From assembly GCA_947589035.1 (NCBI GenBank), contig CANPYZ010000012.1, forward strand, positions 1 through 59,632: DNA of 59,632 nt, given 5' to 3'. The notes under the pieces were generated by a model that worked only from the letters and a program-made list of their open reading frames with translations, had not been told where the DNA came from and did no database searches. Each line of letters starts with the position of its first letter. The first letter of the stretch is position 1. Source of the stretch: an uncultured Clostridia bacterium (GTDB lineage Bacteria; Bacillota; Clostridia; Oscillospirales; Ruminococcaceae). Shown here one piece after another: positions 12,086-15,519 of this stretch. The position numbers and the translations under genes were made by a program.

Positions 12086-12091
12086 ATAAAA

Positions 12092-12125
12092 ATAAGCAGA
12101 TACTTCCGGAAAAGTATCTGCTTAT
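12092..12125. terminator. Terminator between convergent thi and ATPase/ClpP operons
   Basis: Perfect 14-bp stem (ATAAGCAGATACTT and its complement) around a short loop. The minus-strand side is followed by a T-rich tract, so it most clearly serves the operon to the right; it may act on both strands. Confidence 0.8.
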
Positions 12126-12133
12126 TGTGTGGT

Positions 12134-12367
12134 TTAGTCTGCGCTGCCGAATAATGCGTTGAATCTCCGTGACATTTCTTCCTCCATGGATAATTTTTCC
12201 TCTTCGGAAACAGACTCTTCGAAAAGCCATATGTCATCGTCCAGTAAGTCGAAATCATCTTCCTTTTCATCTTCTTCAGGGAGCTGCACTGCTTTTTTCG
12301 GCGGTGGTTTCAACGGTGCCTGAATTTCCCGAATGAATGCTTCACGGCGTTCTTTAATCGAAGACAT
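12134..12367 (-). CDS. Small acidic protein of the ATPase/ClpP operon
   Basis: About 77 residues, not recognised. A basic N-terminal helix (SSIKERREAFIREI) is followed by a Pro/Lys stretch (LKPPPKK) and a very acidic C-terminal half rich in Asp/Glu (EEDEKEDDFDLLDDD), ending with a possible short helix. Two in-frame ATGs lie at 12373 and 12367; the second has better spacing from the AAAGGAG site. It starts at the stop codon of the ATPase gene, so co-translation is likely. Charge layout suggests an adaptor or tail-like partner, but that is inference. Confidence 0.7.
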   Translation of the reverse strand: MSSIKERREAFIREIQAPLKPPPKKAVQLPEEDEKEDDFDLLDDDIWLFEESVSEEEKLSMEEEMSRRFNALFGSAD

Positions 12368-12372
12368 TAACA

Positions 12373-13653
12373 TTATCTCCTTTCCCGTTTTTCGGCTTTT
12401 TTAATCTGTTGTTCGTAGTGCTGCGTGATTTTCTGGTAAGTCTGGTTACTGAGAATATTATAACGCTGTGTCTGGATTGGTCTTTGTCCACGTCTGAAAA
12501 TCACTTCCGCCCCTAAAGGCATGTACAGCACATCTTCAAGCGGTAAATTCAGCCGTTCGCTGATGTTCCGACAAGTCTTAATATTCATGCCGCCCATGTA
12601 AATATATGTATCGCAATTGTCAATAATTGTCACTGCATCTTCATAGCCATACATGCGTTCGAGTTGGCTTTCCGACTGTAAAAATAACATCACGCTGATT
12701 TGTTTTTCCCGAAAAATGGAAATATATTCCGGAAAATTCAAAATTCGTGAACCCGTTGCAAAGTCGTCCGCAAGCACACTCACCGGAATGGGAAGTTTTC
12801 CGCTTGGGAGTGATTCCGCATATTCAAACAACTGTTTGAACATCTGTGCATAAAACATATTGATGAAACAATTCAATGCTGGATTTACTGCGGAAGTCGA
12901 AATGAACAGCACTGTTTTATGATTGGAAAGTTCTTCAAAGTCAACGTTGGCTTTATTAGAAATCATTTTCCGAAGTTCCGGTGAAAAAATCGTGTCAATT
13001 GTTGTGTTCATTGTACCATAAACGCAACTTGCAGTTTTAATTGGCAGAACTTTGAACGAGTTCCAACAAGTCGCTGCAAAACAATGTGAGTCTTTAGCGG
13101 TAATTTTAGCGAATTTAGCGTCTAAAGACGTTTCAATCCGGCTTCCGTCTTCGGAAACGGTCAGGCTGTCAACTAATTTCAGCACGTCCGCAAAAGTAGG
13201 ATTGTCCTCTGTCATCAATACATAGGCAATTAAAGCGGAAAGCAGACTTACGGAAGCTTCGTCCCAGTAGGGGTCAGCAGTAGTATTTTCTTTTCTGGGG
13301 TTAGCCTTCACGATAGATTCCGCCAGAAATGTAATATCTGAATAGCTTGTCACATAGGCAAGAGGGTCATAGGCGGCATTACTTTCCGTTGGATTGACAA
13401 AATTCAAATCAAGTACACGGTAACCTCTTTTAAGGAACATTTCCGTGTATTTTTCGACAATCCGCCGTTTCGTGCAGGTCACAATGAGACTGGAGTGGAA
13501 TGTTTCAATCAGCCTTGGTTCCATAATGGACATTGTTTTCCCACATCCGCTGCTTGCACAAACGAGGATATTATTATTCAATCCGGTAGCGTTACAGTCA
13601 GTGCTGAATACAGCATTCTGACCTTCTCCAAGAATCATTCTGTCTGCGTTCAT
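12373..13653 (-). CDS. Soluble VirD4/TraG-like coupling-type ATPase
   Basis: 426 residues of the FtsK-HerA/TraG class. Walker A is ASSGCGKT (33-40). A TraG-like block follows (YRVLDLNFVNP, YDPLAY, DPYWDEASVSLLSALIAY). Walker B is VSVLADD (291-297) with Asp where coupling proteins usually have Glu (LADDFA versus LLDEFA). A glutamine motif QSESQLE (326-332) is present. The N-terminal membrane helices of true VirD4/TraG proteins are absent, and no relaxase or mating-pore gene is nearby. It lies 1 nt downstream of a ClpP-like gene. It could be a remnant of a conjugative element or the motor of a separate ATPase-protease machine. Confidence 0.82.
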   Translation of the reverse strand: MNADRMILGEGQNAVFSTDCNATGLNNNILVCASSGCGKTMSIMEPRLIETFHSSLIVTCTKRRIVEKYTEMFLKRGYRVLDLNFVNPTESNAAYDPLAYVTSYSDITFLAESIVKANPRKENTTADPYWDEASVSLLSALIAYVLMTEDNPTFADVLKLVDSLTVSEDGSRIETSLDAKFAKITAKDSHCFAATCWNSFKVLPIKTASCVYGTMNTTIDTIFSPELRKMISNKANVDFEELSNHKTVLFISTSAVNPALNCFINMFYAQMFKQLFEYAESLPSGKLPIPVSVLADDFATGSRILNFPEYISIFREKQISVMLFLQSESQLERMYGYEDAVTIIDNCDTYIYMGGMNIKTCRNISERLNLPLEDVLYMPLGAEVIFRRGQRPIQTQRYNILSNQTYQKITQHYEQQIKKAEKRERR

Positions 13654-13654
13654 T

Positions 13655-14242
13655 TTATCCCTCCATTAATTGATCAAAAGTAACAATTTCATCAGCAAGC
13701 CCGAAATCAATACTTTCTTCCGGACTGTAATAATGGTCAAATCCTGTGGCTTCTTCAATTTCTTTCACCGTTTTTCCCGTGTGATGAGCAAGAATTTGAT
13801 TCATTTTGTTTCTGGTTTCCATCAGGCTGTCGGAAATAGAACGAATAGAAGAAGCATTTCCGCCAACTCTGTTTCCGAGAAGCGGTTCATGCAGCATTAA
13901 TTCACTGTGGGGAAACATATATCTGCCATGGCTTCCGCTGGCAAATAATAACGCTGCCATAGAATACGCCAAACCCATACAATACATGCGAATCGGCGTT
14001 TTACAGGACTGAATGCAATCATACATCAGCAAACCAGAAGAAATTTCTCCTCCTGGGCTGTTGATTAACACGTCAATTGGCTTGCTGCTGTCTTCTTTGC
14101 AAAGAAGAATAATCTGCTTGACAAAGTCACAAGCTTTTTCGTGGTTAATTTCGCCTTCAATGAAAACTTTCCGTTCCGCAAGGAGTCGTGTTTCTAAGGG
14201 CATAAGCGTAATTCCATTACTTGACTTTACTTGAATATTCAT
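13655..14242 (-). CDS. ClpP-like serine protease
   Basis: 195 residues, standard ClpP length. The catalytic triad can be placed: Ser94 (GLAYSMAAL, where ClpP has GQAASMAA), His118 (SELMLHEP) and Asp169 (TGFDHYYSPEE). The oxyanion INSPGGEISSG strand is present. It differs from housekeeping ClpP around the active site and in the N-terminal gate region. No ClpX, ClpA or ClpC gene is in the window; its neighbours are a YbjN-like protein (ATGA overlap upstream) and a coupling-type ATPase (1-nt gap downstream). Likely a specialised protease paralogue; substrate unknown. Confidence 0.85.
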   Translation of the reverse strand: MNIQVKSSNGITLMPLETRLLAERKVFIEGEINHEKACDFVKQIILLCKEDSSKPIDVLINSPGGEISSGLLMYDCIQSCKTPIRMYCMGLAYSMAALLFASGSHGRYMFPHSELMLHEPLLGNRVGGNASSIRSISDSLMETRNKMNQILAHHTGKTVKEIEEATGFDHYYSPEESIDFGLADEIVTFDQLMEG

Positions 14243-14958
14243 TCGTCAGTTTCGCCGCCTTTCTTTCCGAACAAATCTGTATGTATTTCCGGTTCTTCGT
14301 CACTGTTTTCTGTGTTTTCAGTAGAAGAAGTTTCTTCCGCATCTGAACCAAAACGTGCTGCAAGGCGTGCAATCATTGATTCAATGCCTTCACTTTCGGA
14401 AGAAGTTTCTTCTGCATCTGAATTTTCATTTCCGGATTCCAGCATTCTTTCCAGAATATCACGGAGTTGTGTTCTGTTTTTGGCTTCGCACTGTTCAACA
14501 GCCTCTTTTCCAGAAGTATGATTGAAAAGCACGCTGAGGATGCCGGAGCTGTAGCGTTCAAACATTTTCGCCGGGCAATAAATGCTTTTCTGAATCATTT
14601 CCGTAGTGGGAATAATTTCATTGCAGGGAACATGCACTTTAAAACGGATTTCCCCGTCGTTAAAGTCAAGTTCAAAATTGCCCATTCTCAAACCATAATT
14701 CGCACGGCAAATAAATTCTGCCATATTCGCCATAATGGTTTTGTCGTCTTCGTCTGCACCAAGGGGACTGATTGCATAGACAATATATTCGTTTCTTTCA
14801 ACATCAATAATATAATTGATTTTCTTCATTTTCCCTTTCAGATTGAGTGGGAATTTAAATATTCCGAGTTTTTCATCAAAAGAAAAACGCCAGTCATCTT
14901 CTTCAAGGAAAGTGTTGATTGCGTCGGCAATCGTTACGGAATAATGTTTATCATTCAT
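14239..14958 (-). CDS. YbjN-like protein with acidic tail
   Basis: 239 residues. The N-terminal about 145 residues fit the YbjN / type III chaperone-like fold: a short helix, strands around residues 24-60, and a conserved-looking ANYGLRMGNFELDFNDGEIRFK segment split here as ANYGLRMGNF and DFNDGEIRFK. The rest is acidic and Ser/Thr-rich, with two copies of SDAEETSS flanking an amphipathic IESMIARLAARFG helix. It heads a four-gene operon, has an AGGAGG site and follows a micro-ORF whose stop codon lies just upstream. A chaperone or adaptor role is inferred from the fold and context. Confidence 0.72.
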   Translation of the reverse strand: MNDKHYSVTIADAINTFLEEDDWRFSFDEKLGIFKFPLNLKGKMKKINYIIDVERNEYIVYAISPLGADEDDKTIMANMAEFICRANYGLRMGNFELDFNDGEIRFKVHVPCNEIIPTTEMIQKSIYCPAKMFERYSSGILSVLFNHTSGKEAVEQCEAKNRTQLRDILERMLESGNENSDAEETSSESEGIESMIARLAARFGSDAEETSSTENTENSDEEPEIHTDLFGKKGGETDE

Positions 14959-14974
14959 TCTAATCCTCCTGTTC

Positions 14975-15052
14975 TTATCGGCTTGTCAATCGGCATTGAC
15001 AACGGCTTTTATTGTTTTCATGCTGTCGAATGTTCAGAAAATTTTTACTCAT
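14975..15052 (-). CDS. Possible 25-residue leader peptide
   Basis: ATG-started frame of 25 codons with an AAGGAG site 4 nt upstream. The peptide begins MSKNFLNIRQ, is basic and ends with a Cys-x-Cys and several Arg (RCQCRLTSR). Its 3' end lies over a perfect 8-bp inverted repeat and its TAA is 7 nt before the AGGAGG of the YbjN-like gene, a layout seen in translationally controlled leaders. No homologue is known to me. Confidence 0.45.
   Translation of the reverse strand: MSKNFLNIRQHENNKSRCQCRLTSR
14983..15002. promoter_or_regulatory. Perfect inverted repeat before the operon ribosome site
   Basis: TTGTCAAT, a 4-nt CGGC centre, then ATTGACAA. In RNA it forms an 8-bp hairpin inside the micro-ORF, immediately upstream of the operon's ribosome-binding site; in DNA it could equally be a dimeric operator. 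Confidence 0.6.
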
Positions 15053-15383
15053 TCATCTCCTTATGTTTAACAAGTACGTTTGCGCCGCACTGTATTGTCA
15101 GGCGGAATACAGTCCCCGTTGCATAATCAGCACACTTCAGCAACTTAGTGTTAATATTCAATTTTCAAGATGCGTTTTGTCTTTCCCTGAAGTCTTATAT
15201 GACAAATAACCGCTGATTTCGTGGAAATTCACGAAATCAAAGCGCATTGTCTGCCTTGAATAACAAAAAGCCATCCTGCATTCCGCAGAGTGACCTATCA
15301 TTCATGCTGTAACTATTTTTCATCATTTTCATTTTATCGGACTTCTAATTTTTTCATATTCCGTAAAAAAATGGGGTATTTTT

Positions 15384-15412
15384 ATTATAGCACTTCTTTT
15401 TCACTCTGTCAA
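15384..15412 (-). promoter_or_regulatory. Consensus promoter of the ATPase/ClpP operon
   Basis: Minus strand TTGACA (15407-15412), 17-nt spacer, TATAAT (15384-15389). Both hexamers match perfectly. It starts about 40 nt after the end of the tRNA-like gene, so the two transcripts are independent. Confidence 0.85.
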
Positions 15413-15448: not shown

Positions 15449-15519
15449 ATCCCTTTGGCGGAATTGAACCGCCGTCTCCAGCTTGCAGAGCTGGCATCCT
15501 CACATTGGACGATAAGGGA
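15449..15519 (-). tRNA. tRNA-like gene with abnormal anticodon loop
   Basis: A 71-nt cloverleaf can be drawn: acceptor TCCCTTA/AAAGGGA with a mismatched last pair; D-stem GTCC/GGAT; anticodon stem CCAGC/GCTGG with a 7-nt loop TCTGCAA; variable AGAC; T-stem GGCGG/CCGCC with loop TTCAATT; discriminator T. Symmetrical reading gives anticodon TGC (Ala) but with C instead of U at position 33, and the acceptor lacks the Ala G3-U70 pair. GCA (Cys), which would fit the U73 discriminator, is offset by one base. CCA is not encoded. The D-loop lacks GG. It has its own strong promoter. Either a decayed tRNA, an unusual tRNA, or an ncRNA with a tRNA-like 3' domain. Confidence 0.6.

Follow-up and report, generated by a model that had tools for sequence, protein, structure and literature searches.

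The window analysed here, a stretch of 59,632 nucleotides from an uncultured Clostridia bacterium of the Ruminococcaceae (assembly GCA_947589035.1, contig CANPYZ010000012.1, positions 1 to 59,632 of the forward strand), carries on its minus strand, at 12134-15412, a compact operon that open reading frame (ORF) analysis resolves into four genes, encoding a YbjN-like protein, a ClpP-like protease, an ATPase resembling the VirD4/TraG coupling proteins of type IV secretion systems (T4SS) and a small protein. An initial annotation, made from the window alone, had treated the four genes as the unit; across genomes, however, sequence comparison identifies the clpP-virD4 pair as the conserved unit, and it is this pair, and the protease machine that it may encode, that we discuss. 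The features of the operon are as follows.

14239-14958, minus strand: ybjN-like gene (239 aa), with a predicted fold like that of type III secretion system (T3SS) chaperones and a disordered acidic C-terminal tail
14242-14289, minus strand: last part of the YbjN tail, up to the C-terminus, which carries the motif HTDLFGKKGG
13655-14242, minus strand: clpP-like gene (195 aa), of a serine protease family
13963-13961, 13891-13889 and 13738-13736, minus strand: clpP catalytic codons for Ser94, His118 and Asp169
12373-13653, minus strand: virD4-like gene (426 aa), for a soluble VirD4/TraG-like ATPase without an N-terminal membrane domain
13557-13534 and 12774-12760, minus strand: sequence motifs of the virD4-like gene, Walker A and Walker B with DD
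12134-12373, minus strand: small-protein gene (79 aa), with a basic start and an acidic body
15384-15412, minus strand: promoter TTGACA-17-TATAAT with TG before the -10 element, a 12/12 consensus match
14959-15377, minus strand: untranslated leader of ~420 nt, its 5' start placed from the promoter
15155-15171, minus strand: leader element ATCTTGAAAATTGAATA, closely matched in the leaders of loci L092 and L093
15213-15240, minus strand: perfect 10-bp palindrome with a 6-nt spacer in the leader, operator-like or a hairpin
12091-12126, minus strand: terminator-like hairpin after the last gene, 16 pairs followed by a T-rich stretch

The genes are tightly packed: ybjN and clpP overlap by 4 nt, clpP and virD4 lie 1 nt apart, and virD4 and the small gene overlap by 1 nt. 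Much of the initial annotation held on inspection, namely the four overlapping or abutting genes behind a common consensus promoter and a long leader, the intact Ser-His-Asp triad of the ClpP-like protein, the soluble nature of the VirD4/TraG-like ATPase, and the lack of an adjoining relaxase, mating-pore, Clp ATPase or phage gene: by eye, none of the first three was seen among the ORFs of the window, and no phage gene beside the operon. The ClpP-like protein matches PF00574 (Clp protease; E 4.5e-49, 167.2 bits, above the cut-off of 20.2) and falls below the cut-off of the ClpP equivalog model TIGR00493 (146.4 bits, cut-off 308.6). The ATPase matches PF02534 (T4SS-DNA_transf; E 7.4e-37, 127.7 bits, above the cut-off of 20.1), and its best NCBIfam match, the conjugative CD1115 family (NF045973), scores 243 bits, just below the cut-off of 250. 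The YbjN-like identity fared less evenly, as the match to PF10722 (E 0.018, 15.7 bits) lies under the 22-bit cut-off while the predicted fold supports it; the counterpart at locus L098 scores 24.9 bits against the same family, above the cut-off. The small 79-aa protein belongs to no Pfam family.

When the ATPase was used as query against one genome per species (84,980 species), 34 loci were returned, with ATPase identities of 33-85%, from metagenome-assembled genomes (MAGs) labelled Ruminococcus, Oscillospiraceae, Christensenellaceae, Lachnospiraceae, Clostridia and, in one case, Synergistaceae. A clpP-like gene lies 5' of the ATPase gene on the same strand in 32 of these 34 loci, and the contigs of the other two (L097 and L121) begin at the ATPase. 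The two ORFs overlap or lie at most 142 nt apart, except at L098, L100, L107 and L116 (214-501 nt); a 121-aa ORF of no Pfam family stands between them at L107, and the clpP reading frame is broken at L110. Within the window's genus the pair occurs in 11 of 38 genomes, as a close type in four (the window's own, G022, G030 and G031) and as a diverged type in eight, G031 having both; about 650 nt separate the two ORFs in G008, and two more VirD4 proteins of the paired type lie at contig ends (G012 and G021:C71). A survey of 291 genomes of the class found the pair in at least three (the window's, G330 and, twice, G191), a count that is a lower bound because six candidates per genome were scored and 30 loci fetched. 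Gut and rumen bacteria are among the carriers. The presence of the pair is patchy and its flanking genes vary from locus to locus; the arrangement of clpP and virD4 is not due to chance.

Several single loci deserve mention. The locus in the MAG labelled Synergistaceae (L099, JAFTCP010000142.1) encodes an ATPase 65% identical to that of the window, reflecting either cross-phylum transfer or a binning error. A TIR-Sel1 gene follows the pair at L106:9392-10633, and a protein-kinase gene precedes it at L101:6124-7296. Scans of the neighbouring genes covered 107 of the 121 ORFs of at least 90 aa near the pairs of 19 of the 34 loci (7 YbjN copies, 5 antisense ORFs and 2 very large ones were set aside), with family matches taken as the best 25 of 123, 156 and 354 families.

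Phylogenetic trees separated the paired proteins from their relatives on both sides of the partnership. Among the 88 rows of a VirD4 tree, a branch with a Shimodaira-Hasegawa-like approximate likelihood ratio (SH-aLRT) support of 98 sets 39 paired proteins and 3 contig-edge ones on one side and, on the other, 46 rows without ClpP in the flank. The latter are of conjugative type by size and kin, and 'unpaired' is here a label for the lack of a ClpP in the fetched flank, the result being that the label follows one branch; the tree was made by a quick method with long branches flagged, and labels were set by hand for L037 (paired) and for L032, L053 and L097 (contig-edge). Likewise, in a ClpP tree of 63 rows the 38 paired ClpPs part, with a support of 99, from 25 further ClpPs of the genus that are presumed to be housekeeping (L090, L091 and L093 stood outside both trees). 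Evolutionary distances among the ClpPs follow those among their VirD4 partners (r 0.93, n = 38, with none of 9999 permutations as high), a correlation to which shared host ancestry contributes. Similarity scores alone do not part the groups, for the unpaired G116 protein (336 bits) outscores the paired ones of G034 (325 bits) and G330 (306 bits). Judged from these trees and distances, each partner traces to a one-branch origin, and the pair has matched histories.

The paired ClpPs have kept their catalytic residues and changed where Clp ATPases bind. The full Ser-His-Asp triad is present in 36 of 38, including the window's copy. At the position of E. coli F82, which we take to line the docking pocket of ClpP, all 25 other ClpPs of the genus have Y and 31 of the 38 paired ClpPs have S, A or G; at R170, beside the catalytic Asp, the 25 others all have R, and 28 of the 38 have F or Y. 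The equivalent of E. coli R192 is R in 25/25 of the others, and R or K in 0/38 of the paired proteins. According to passages of a published study (PMC7112951), R192 of E. coli ClpP is needed for binding of ClpX, and the substitution R192K abolishes binding. The changes at R192, F82 and R170 argue against ClpX or ClpC as the partner, and the paired ClpPs look unfit for Clp ATPases, although loss of the docking site is by itself no proof of a new partner. An origin as a phage head-maturation protease was rejected: PHROGs match the ClpP part, yet no phage gene adjoins the window operon (by eye), and a scan of viral contigs, which returned no relatives of the ATPase, further disfavours it.

The ATPase partner likewise departs from its conjugative kin. 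Its structural model, with a predicted local distance difference test (pLDDT) score of 89.7, covers what would be a coupling protein's entire cytosolic part (nucleotide-binding and all-alpha domains), and its best PDB matches are Cag-beta (8dol, E 2.3e-18) and TrwB without its membrane part (1e9r, E 1.4e-13; also 1gl6); the HerA ATPase of defence complexes also resembles the model, more weakly than TrwB does. An N-terminal hydrophobic or membrane segment is found in none of the 42 paired ATPases, as opposed to 39 of 45 unpaired ones. The second acid of Walker B is D in 42/42 paired proteins and E in 45/45 unpaired ones (L127 uncounted), and the Walker A lysine is retained in 41 of the 42, the remaining row being gapped. 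With Walker A kept, Walker B changed from E to D and the membrane segment absent, the paired clade looks active but altered, and without a membrane-channel anchor of its own. An extra piece of the ATPase C-terminus lies upstream of clpP at L107:6490-6756.

The YbjN-like protein accompanies the pair in a subset of loci. Its model has a pLDDT of ~90 up to residue 160 and of <50 over most of the tail, and the best PDB matches (DR1245 4h5b, YbjN 6vu7 and AmyR 5fr7, E 2e-4 to 1e-3) predict a T3SS-chaperone-like fold; T3SS chaperones such as ExsC and CesT follow (E to ~1e-2), with chance-like matches below them. YbjN proteins are described in passages of PMC3575483 as T3SS-chaperone-like and as possible protein stabilisers. 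The gene adjoins clpP in nine loci (the window, L088, L090, L091, L092, L094, L095, L096 and L098), and a [DEN]LF motif stands near the C-terminus in all nine of these copies and in 0/26 other rows, a count made by eye from the last 22 residues in which some rows are fragments. The motif mostly takes the form T-D-L-F-x-x-K-G-G (T-E-L-F at L092, N-L-F at L098) and is preceded in eight of the nine copies by a poorly conserved acidic tail; a looser test, allowing L, I, V or M before F, also flagged some of the 26 other rows. At L090:6185-7404 two ybjN genes stand in tandem, and only the second copy has the LF tail. Because of the T3SS-chaperone-like fold and of an LF motif at the C-terminus that is confined to copies adjoining clpP, we regard YbjN as a likely adaptor.

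The small protein of the window has FIREIQAPL near its start and RRFNALFG near its end, and is intact only there and at L088 (FIRELRAPL ... QKRFDELFGP); L092 holds a remnant or frameshifted copy (FIREIRSPL). From their sequences, the LF-type ends of the YbjN tail and of the small protein may be docking peptides. In seven diverged loci (L109-L113, L115 and L117) the gene 5' of clpP encodes a small protein that has hydrophobic segments (at L110 by eye) and may serve as a membrane tether for the predicted machine. A further small gene lies 5' of ybjN at L088:232-609 and L092:6346-6675 (126 and 110 aa, 54% identical, with no Pfam family for the L088 copy); no match to it was found in the window.

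Outside the four genes, the operon has thiamine genes on its 3' side, running in the opposite direction (ThiF, ThiG, a radical SAM protein with a BATS domain and TMP-TENI), and a tRNA-like gene and a carbonic anhydrase gene on its 5' side. When thiE was used to look for an empty site, 34 of 38 genomes had matches. The tRNA-like gene (15449-15519, minus strand) scores 47.9 bits against the Rfam tRNA model, has no ARAGORN call, and is 84% identical to a 75-nt tRNA-Ser(gct) at G000:C27:1975-2048, with an altered anticodon loop; 71-75 nt is short for a tRNA-Ser. Integration at this gene was rejected, as a direct repeat of the tRNA end is absent at the far side. The region has 16 other, weaker promoter-like sites, close to the number given by shuffles (9.4 expected). 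The leader element, ATCTTGAAAA(T/C)TG(A/T)ATA, is common to three operon leaders (window 15155-15171, minus strand; L092:6225-6240; L093:7197-7212), and its core has a single exact copy in the window's own genome; it presumably resembles the boxA antitermination signal of rRNA operons. In the leader region Rfam finds just the upstream tRNA as a known RNA, and the leader fold has a z-score of -1.8. As an operator common to relatives the leader palindrome was rejected, since no exact copy lies at the loci of other genomes.

We propose, with a probability of about 0.58, that the pair encodes an ATP-dependent protease driven by a soluble motor of the VirD4/TrwB coupling-protein type instead of a Clp/Hsp100 AAA+ unfoldase, with YbjN as a likely adaptor and defence as a possible role. 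Given its family, the ClpP-like protein would form the usual closed chamber; the VirD4-like hexamer would dock on this chamber by a contact other than an IGF loop, unfold clients and thread them into it. In the window and its nearest relatives, the YbjN-like protein would bind clients, and its flexible acidic tail, ending in T-D-L-F-x-x-K-G-G, would tether it to the ATPase or the protease. We infer the contact between ATPase and ClpP, and their activity, from four observations that mark the ATPase as a dedicated partner of the protease: the strict pairing, the single branch on which each partner lies, the missing membrane anchor and the loss of the ClpX-docking arginine. A motor role is made plausible by passages of Trokter and Waksman (PMC5826034), in which T4SS substrates must unfold and the unfoldase responsible is unclear. 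The suggestion in the initial annotation that the ATPase could be the unfoldase or motor of this protease is partly supported, as far as a dedicated partnership goes; as for the adaptors suggested with it, the fold and the LF motif next to clpP speak for YbjN, and the small acidic protein has turned out to be a rare extra.

A number of observations weigh against this proposal. The triad is lost in two of the 38 paired ClpPs (L119 has neither His nor Asp, and L189 has Asn for Asp), and L090 and L091, which lie outside the tree set, carry Asn at the Asp site. The loss of R192 would also fit a ClpP that works without any ATPase. On the ATPase side, the conserved change from E to D in Walker B could slow ATP hydrolysis; an IGF-like tripeptide was not evident, by eye, among the ten positions at which the paired ATPases are distinctive; a DDE transposase gene disrupts the ATPase gene in L120 (L120:1076-3997), and in G031:C45 (8081-9276) it is split. 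The best-known task of VirD4/TrwB proteins is to drive DNA transfer, and the passages cited above (PMC5826034) leave unclear which ATPase unfolds T4SS substrates. Finally, ybjN is absent from 10 of the 18 close loci in which the upstream side is covered.

The genomic surroundings of some pairs bear on a role in defence. In 3 of the 34 loci (L088, L099 and L104) a type III clustered regularly interspaced short palindromic repeats (CRISPR) locus lies within 8 kb of the pair on the same contig and strand. At L088, genes for a CARF-HEPN protein, a 589-aa protein (no PADLOC match), a CARF protein, an unknown protein, Cas10 and a Cas5/Cas7-type protein begin ~200 nt after the small gene on the same strand; a second CARF-HEPN gene suspected there was not borne out. 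At L104 the pair and two small genes are followed, on the same strand, by relatives of the CARF-HEPN, Cas10 and Cas5/7 genes of L088. At L099 the strand of the pair carries RAMP genes ~6 kb upstream, and between them and the pair stand a Cas_APE2256 gene and a CRISPR array; this four-repeat array (L099:6992-7275, equivalent to L212:16044-16327) ends ~120 nt before clpP, and the contig holds three more small arrays with an identical repeat. RAMPs were found in 8 of 33 pair-bearing genomes searched, and on the contig of the pair in 3 of 34 loci. Fewer than 0.1 such neighbours would be expected by chance, on a rough hand estimate that assumes 20-28 kb per RAMP cluster and whose weight is lower because L088 prompted the test. 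We take the CRISPR neighbourhood to be a habit, linked to defence, that some lineages have, and not a fixed partnership; because three pairs adjoin type III loci, one likely use of the proposed protease is defence by clearing foreign proteins.

The chief rival to this proposal, which we consider unlikely, is a defence or abortive-infection system of two genes that joins a sensor to an effector. By analogy with HerA ATPases that carry effector enzymes, the VirD4-like hexamer would act as a translocase that senses DNA or phage and turns on a ClpP effector rather than feeding a protease, and in some lineages the pair would serve as a type III CRISPR arm. This reading differs from the motor-driven protease in mechanism, and a defence role fits both. 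Support for it comes from the three CRISPR neighbours set against the chance estimate, from the presence of RAMPs in 4 of 11 pair genomes of the genus versus 2 of 27 others, from the patchy presence and varied genomic places of the pair, and from the structural likeness to HerA, although this is weaker than that to TrwB. Yet no RAMP was found in the window's own genome or on 31 of the 34 pair contigs, and within the genus none lies near any pair, the nearest being ~44 kb off on G008:C83; PADLOC models gave no family match to the four window proteins beyond a weak one of mad8 to the ATPase (E 0.04), and no CARF or SAVED domain was found in them. The defence role that had been raised at the outset has gained some support from the three neighbouring loci, none of it from the window's own genome.

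We regard as very unlikely that the pair is a left-over or helper module of conjugative elements, in which the ATPase would bring relaxase-DNA complexes to the channel of another element and ClpP would trim or clear transfer proteins. Membership of the ATPase in the superfamily of type IV coupling proteins (T4CPs), with CD1115 as its best, narrowly missed NCBIfam match, is consistent with such a module, as are the small membrane-type protein upstream of clpP in the seven diverged loci and a relaxase over the cut-off somewhere in 17 of 33 pair-bearing genomes (33 places); moreover, passages of PMC7434980 describe T4CPs without a membrane domain in pIP501, some such proteins acting with small membrane proteins. 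None of these relaxases, however, lies on a contig of the same size as that of the pair, and hence none on the pair's contig. A set of 15 proteins of transfer regions (VirB4, VirB6, PrgI, PcfB, Maff2, CD1107, CD1108 and others, including a lysozyme and a recombinase) matched at 0 of the 34 pair loci and in 0 of 16 further, partly overlapping stretches, and at 24 of 28 positive-control loci, mostly with ~1.5 kb of flank; the 16 stretches are not independent, as L192 duplicates L093, L193 and L194 share sequence with L039 and L033, and two more, L032 and L195, are cut by a contig edge. No best match in plasmid and phage collections reaches 60% identity, and the matches listed reach at most ~32% and are named conjugal transfer proteins where annotated; the collections contain only distant relatives, and viral contigs hold no relative. 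Together with the lack of a membrane segment in all 42 paired ATPases, the flank tests and the collections disfavour a conjugative remnant: no pair was found as a stray fragment of a conjugative element accompanied by a complete transfer module, and the conjugative role once considered for the window is not supported. Hardly credible, in our view, is an accessory ClpP that works in mixed rings or with the host's ClpX or ClpC, beside a functionally unrelated ATPase. The catalytic residues are kept, as it would predict, and ClpP paralogues that share ATPases are known, but the docking arginine is gone in all 38 proteins, the F82 and R170 positions have changed in most of them, and the strict pairing with the ATPase is left unexplained.

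To our knowledge, all ring-shaped ATP-dependent proteases use AAA+ motors, and we know of no other compartmental protease with a motor of the coupling-protein type. Among the papers listed by an open-access literature search, none dealt with a ClpP that has a coupling-type ATPase as partner, preprints, most subscription journals and a query for the pair with CRISPR lying outside its scope. If the proposed protease exists, ClpP with a VirD4/TrwB-type ATPase would add a different class of motor, distinct from the AAA+ ATPases of the Clp, Lon, FtsH, HslU and proteasomal kinds; the compartmental protease is of a known kind, and the motor type would be new if the mechanism holds. If a relative of coupling proteins feeds ClpP, the question of the T4SS unfoldase would gain a soluble route by standard degradation assays, without a membrane channel, and if the CRISPR neighbourhood is functional, type III defence would gain a new proteolytic arm. 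More tentatively, and at somewhat less than even odds, we suggest that coupling-protein ATPases are true unfoldases, one lineage of which left the conjugation channel to become a ClpP motor with a secretion-chaperone-like adaptor and was recruited, in at least three lineages, to type III CRISPR as a proteolytic defence arm.

In light of known systems, the pair resembles ClpXP and ClpCP, with which it shares the ClpP fold and the Ser-His-Asp triad, a likely 14-mer chamber and a ring-ATPase gene as partner; it differs in that the partner gene of the window is of VirD4/TrwB type (PF02534) and not an AAA+ Clp, and in that the docking arginine and the F82 aromatic are lost. With VirD4-type coupling proteins (the CD1115 family NF045973, TrwB and Cag-beta), which provide the best structural matches, the ATPase shares the nucleotide-binding and all-alpha domains, whereas the paired proteins have no N-terminal membrane domain, D-D instead of D-E in Walker B, an adjoining clpP and no transfer genes found nearby. 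The T4CPs TraI and TraJ of pIP501 are likewise soluble coupling-type ATPases without a membrane domain, some of which act with small membrane proteins; according to passages of PMC7434980 they are part of a conjugative plasmid, whereas the pairs described here stand apart from transfer genes. The YbjN-like protein shares a predicted alpha/beta chaperone fold with the YbjN family (DR1245, AmyR and YbjN) and with class I T3SS chaperones, and most copies adjoining clpP differ from the others in carrying an acidic tail of ~50-80 residues (shorter in L098) that ends in the LF motif. HerA-effector complexes, such as HerA with DUF4297, resemble the pair in that a ring ATPase of the FtsK-HerA/VirD4 group has its gene next to that of an effector enzyme, HerA being paired in other defence complexes with Sir2; here the effector would be a ClpP protease, and the ATPase is closer to TrwB than to HerA. 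Lastly, SAVED-Lon is an ancillary protease of type III CRISPR systems, and L088, L099 and L104 likewise have a protease gene beside type III genes; the pair differs in that no CARF or SAVED domain was found and in that it lies, in 31 of 34 cases, on contigs without RAMPs.

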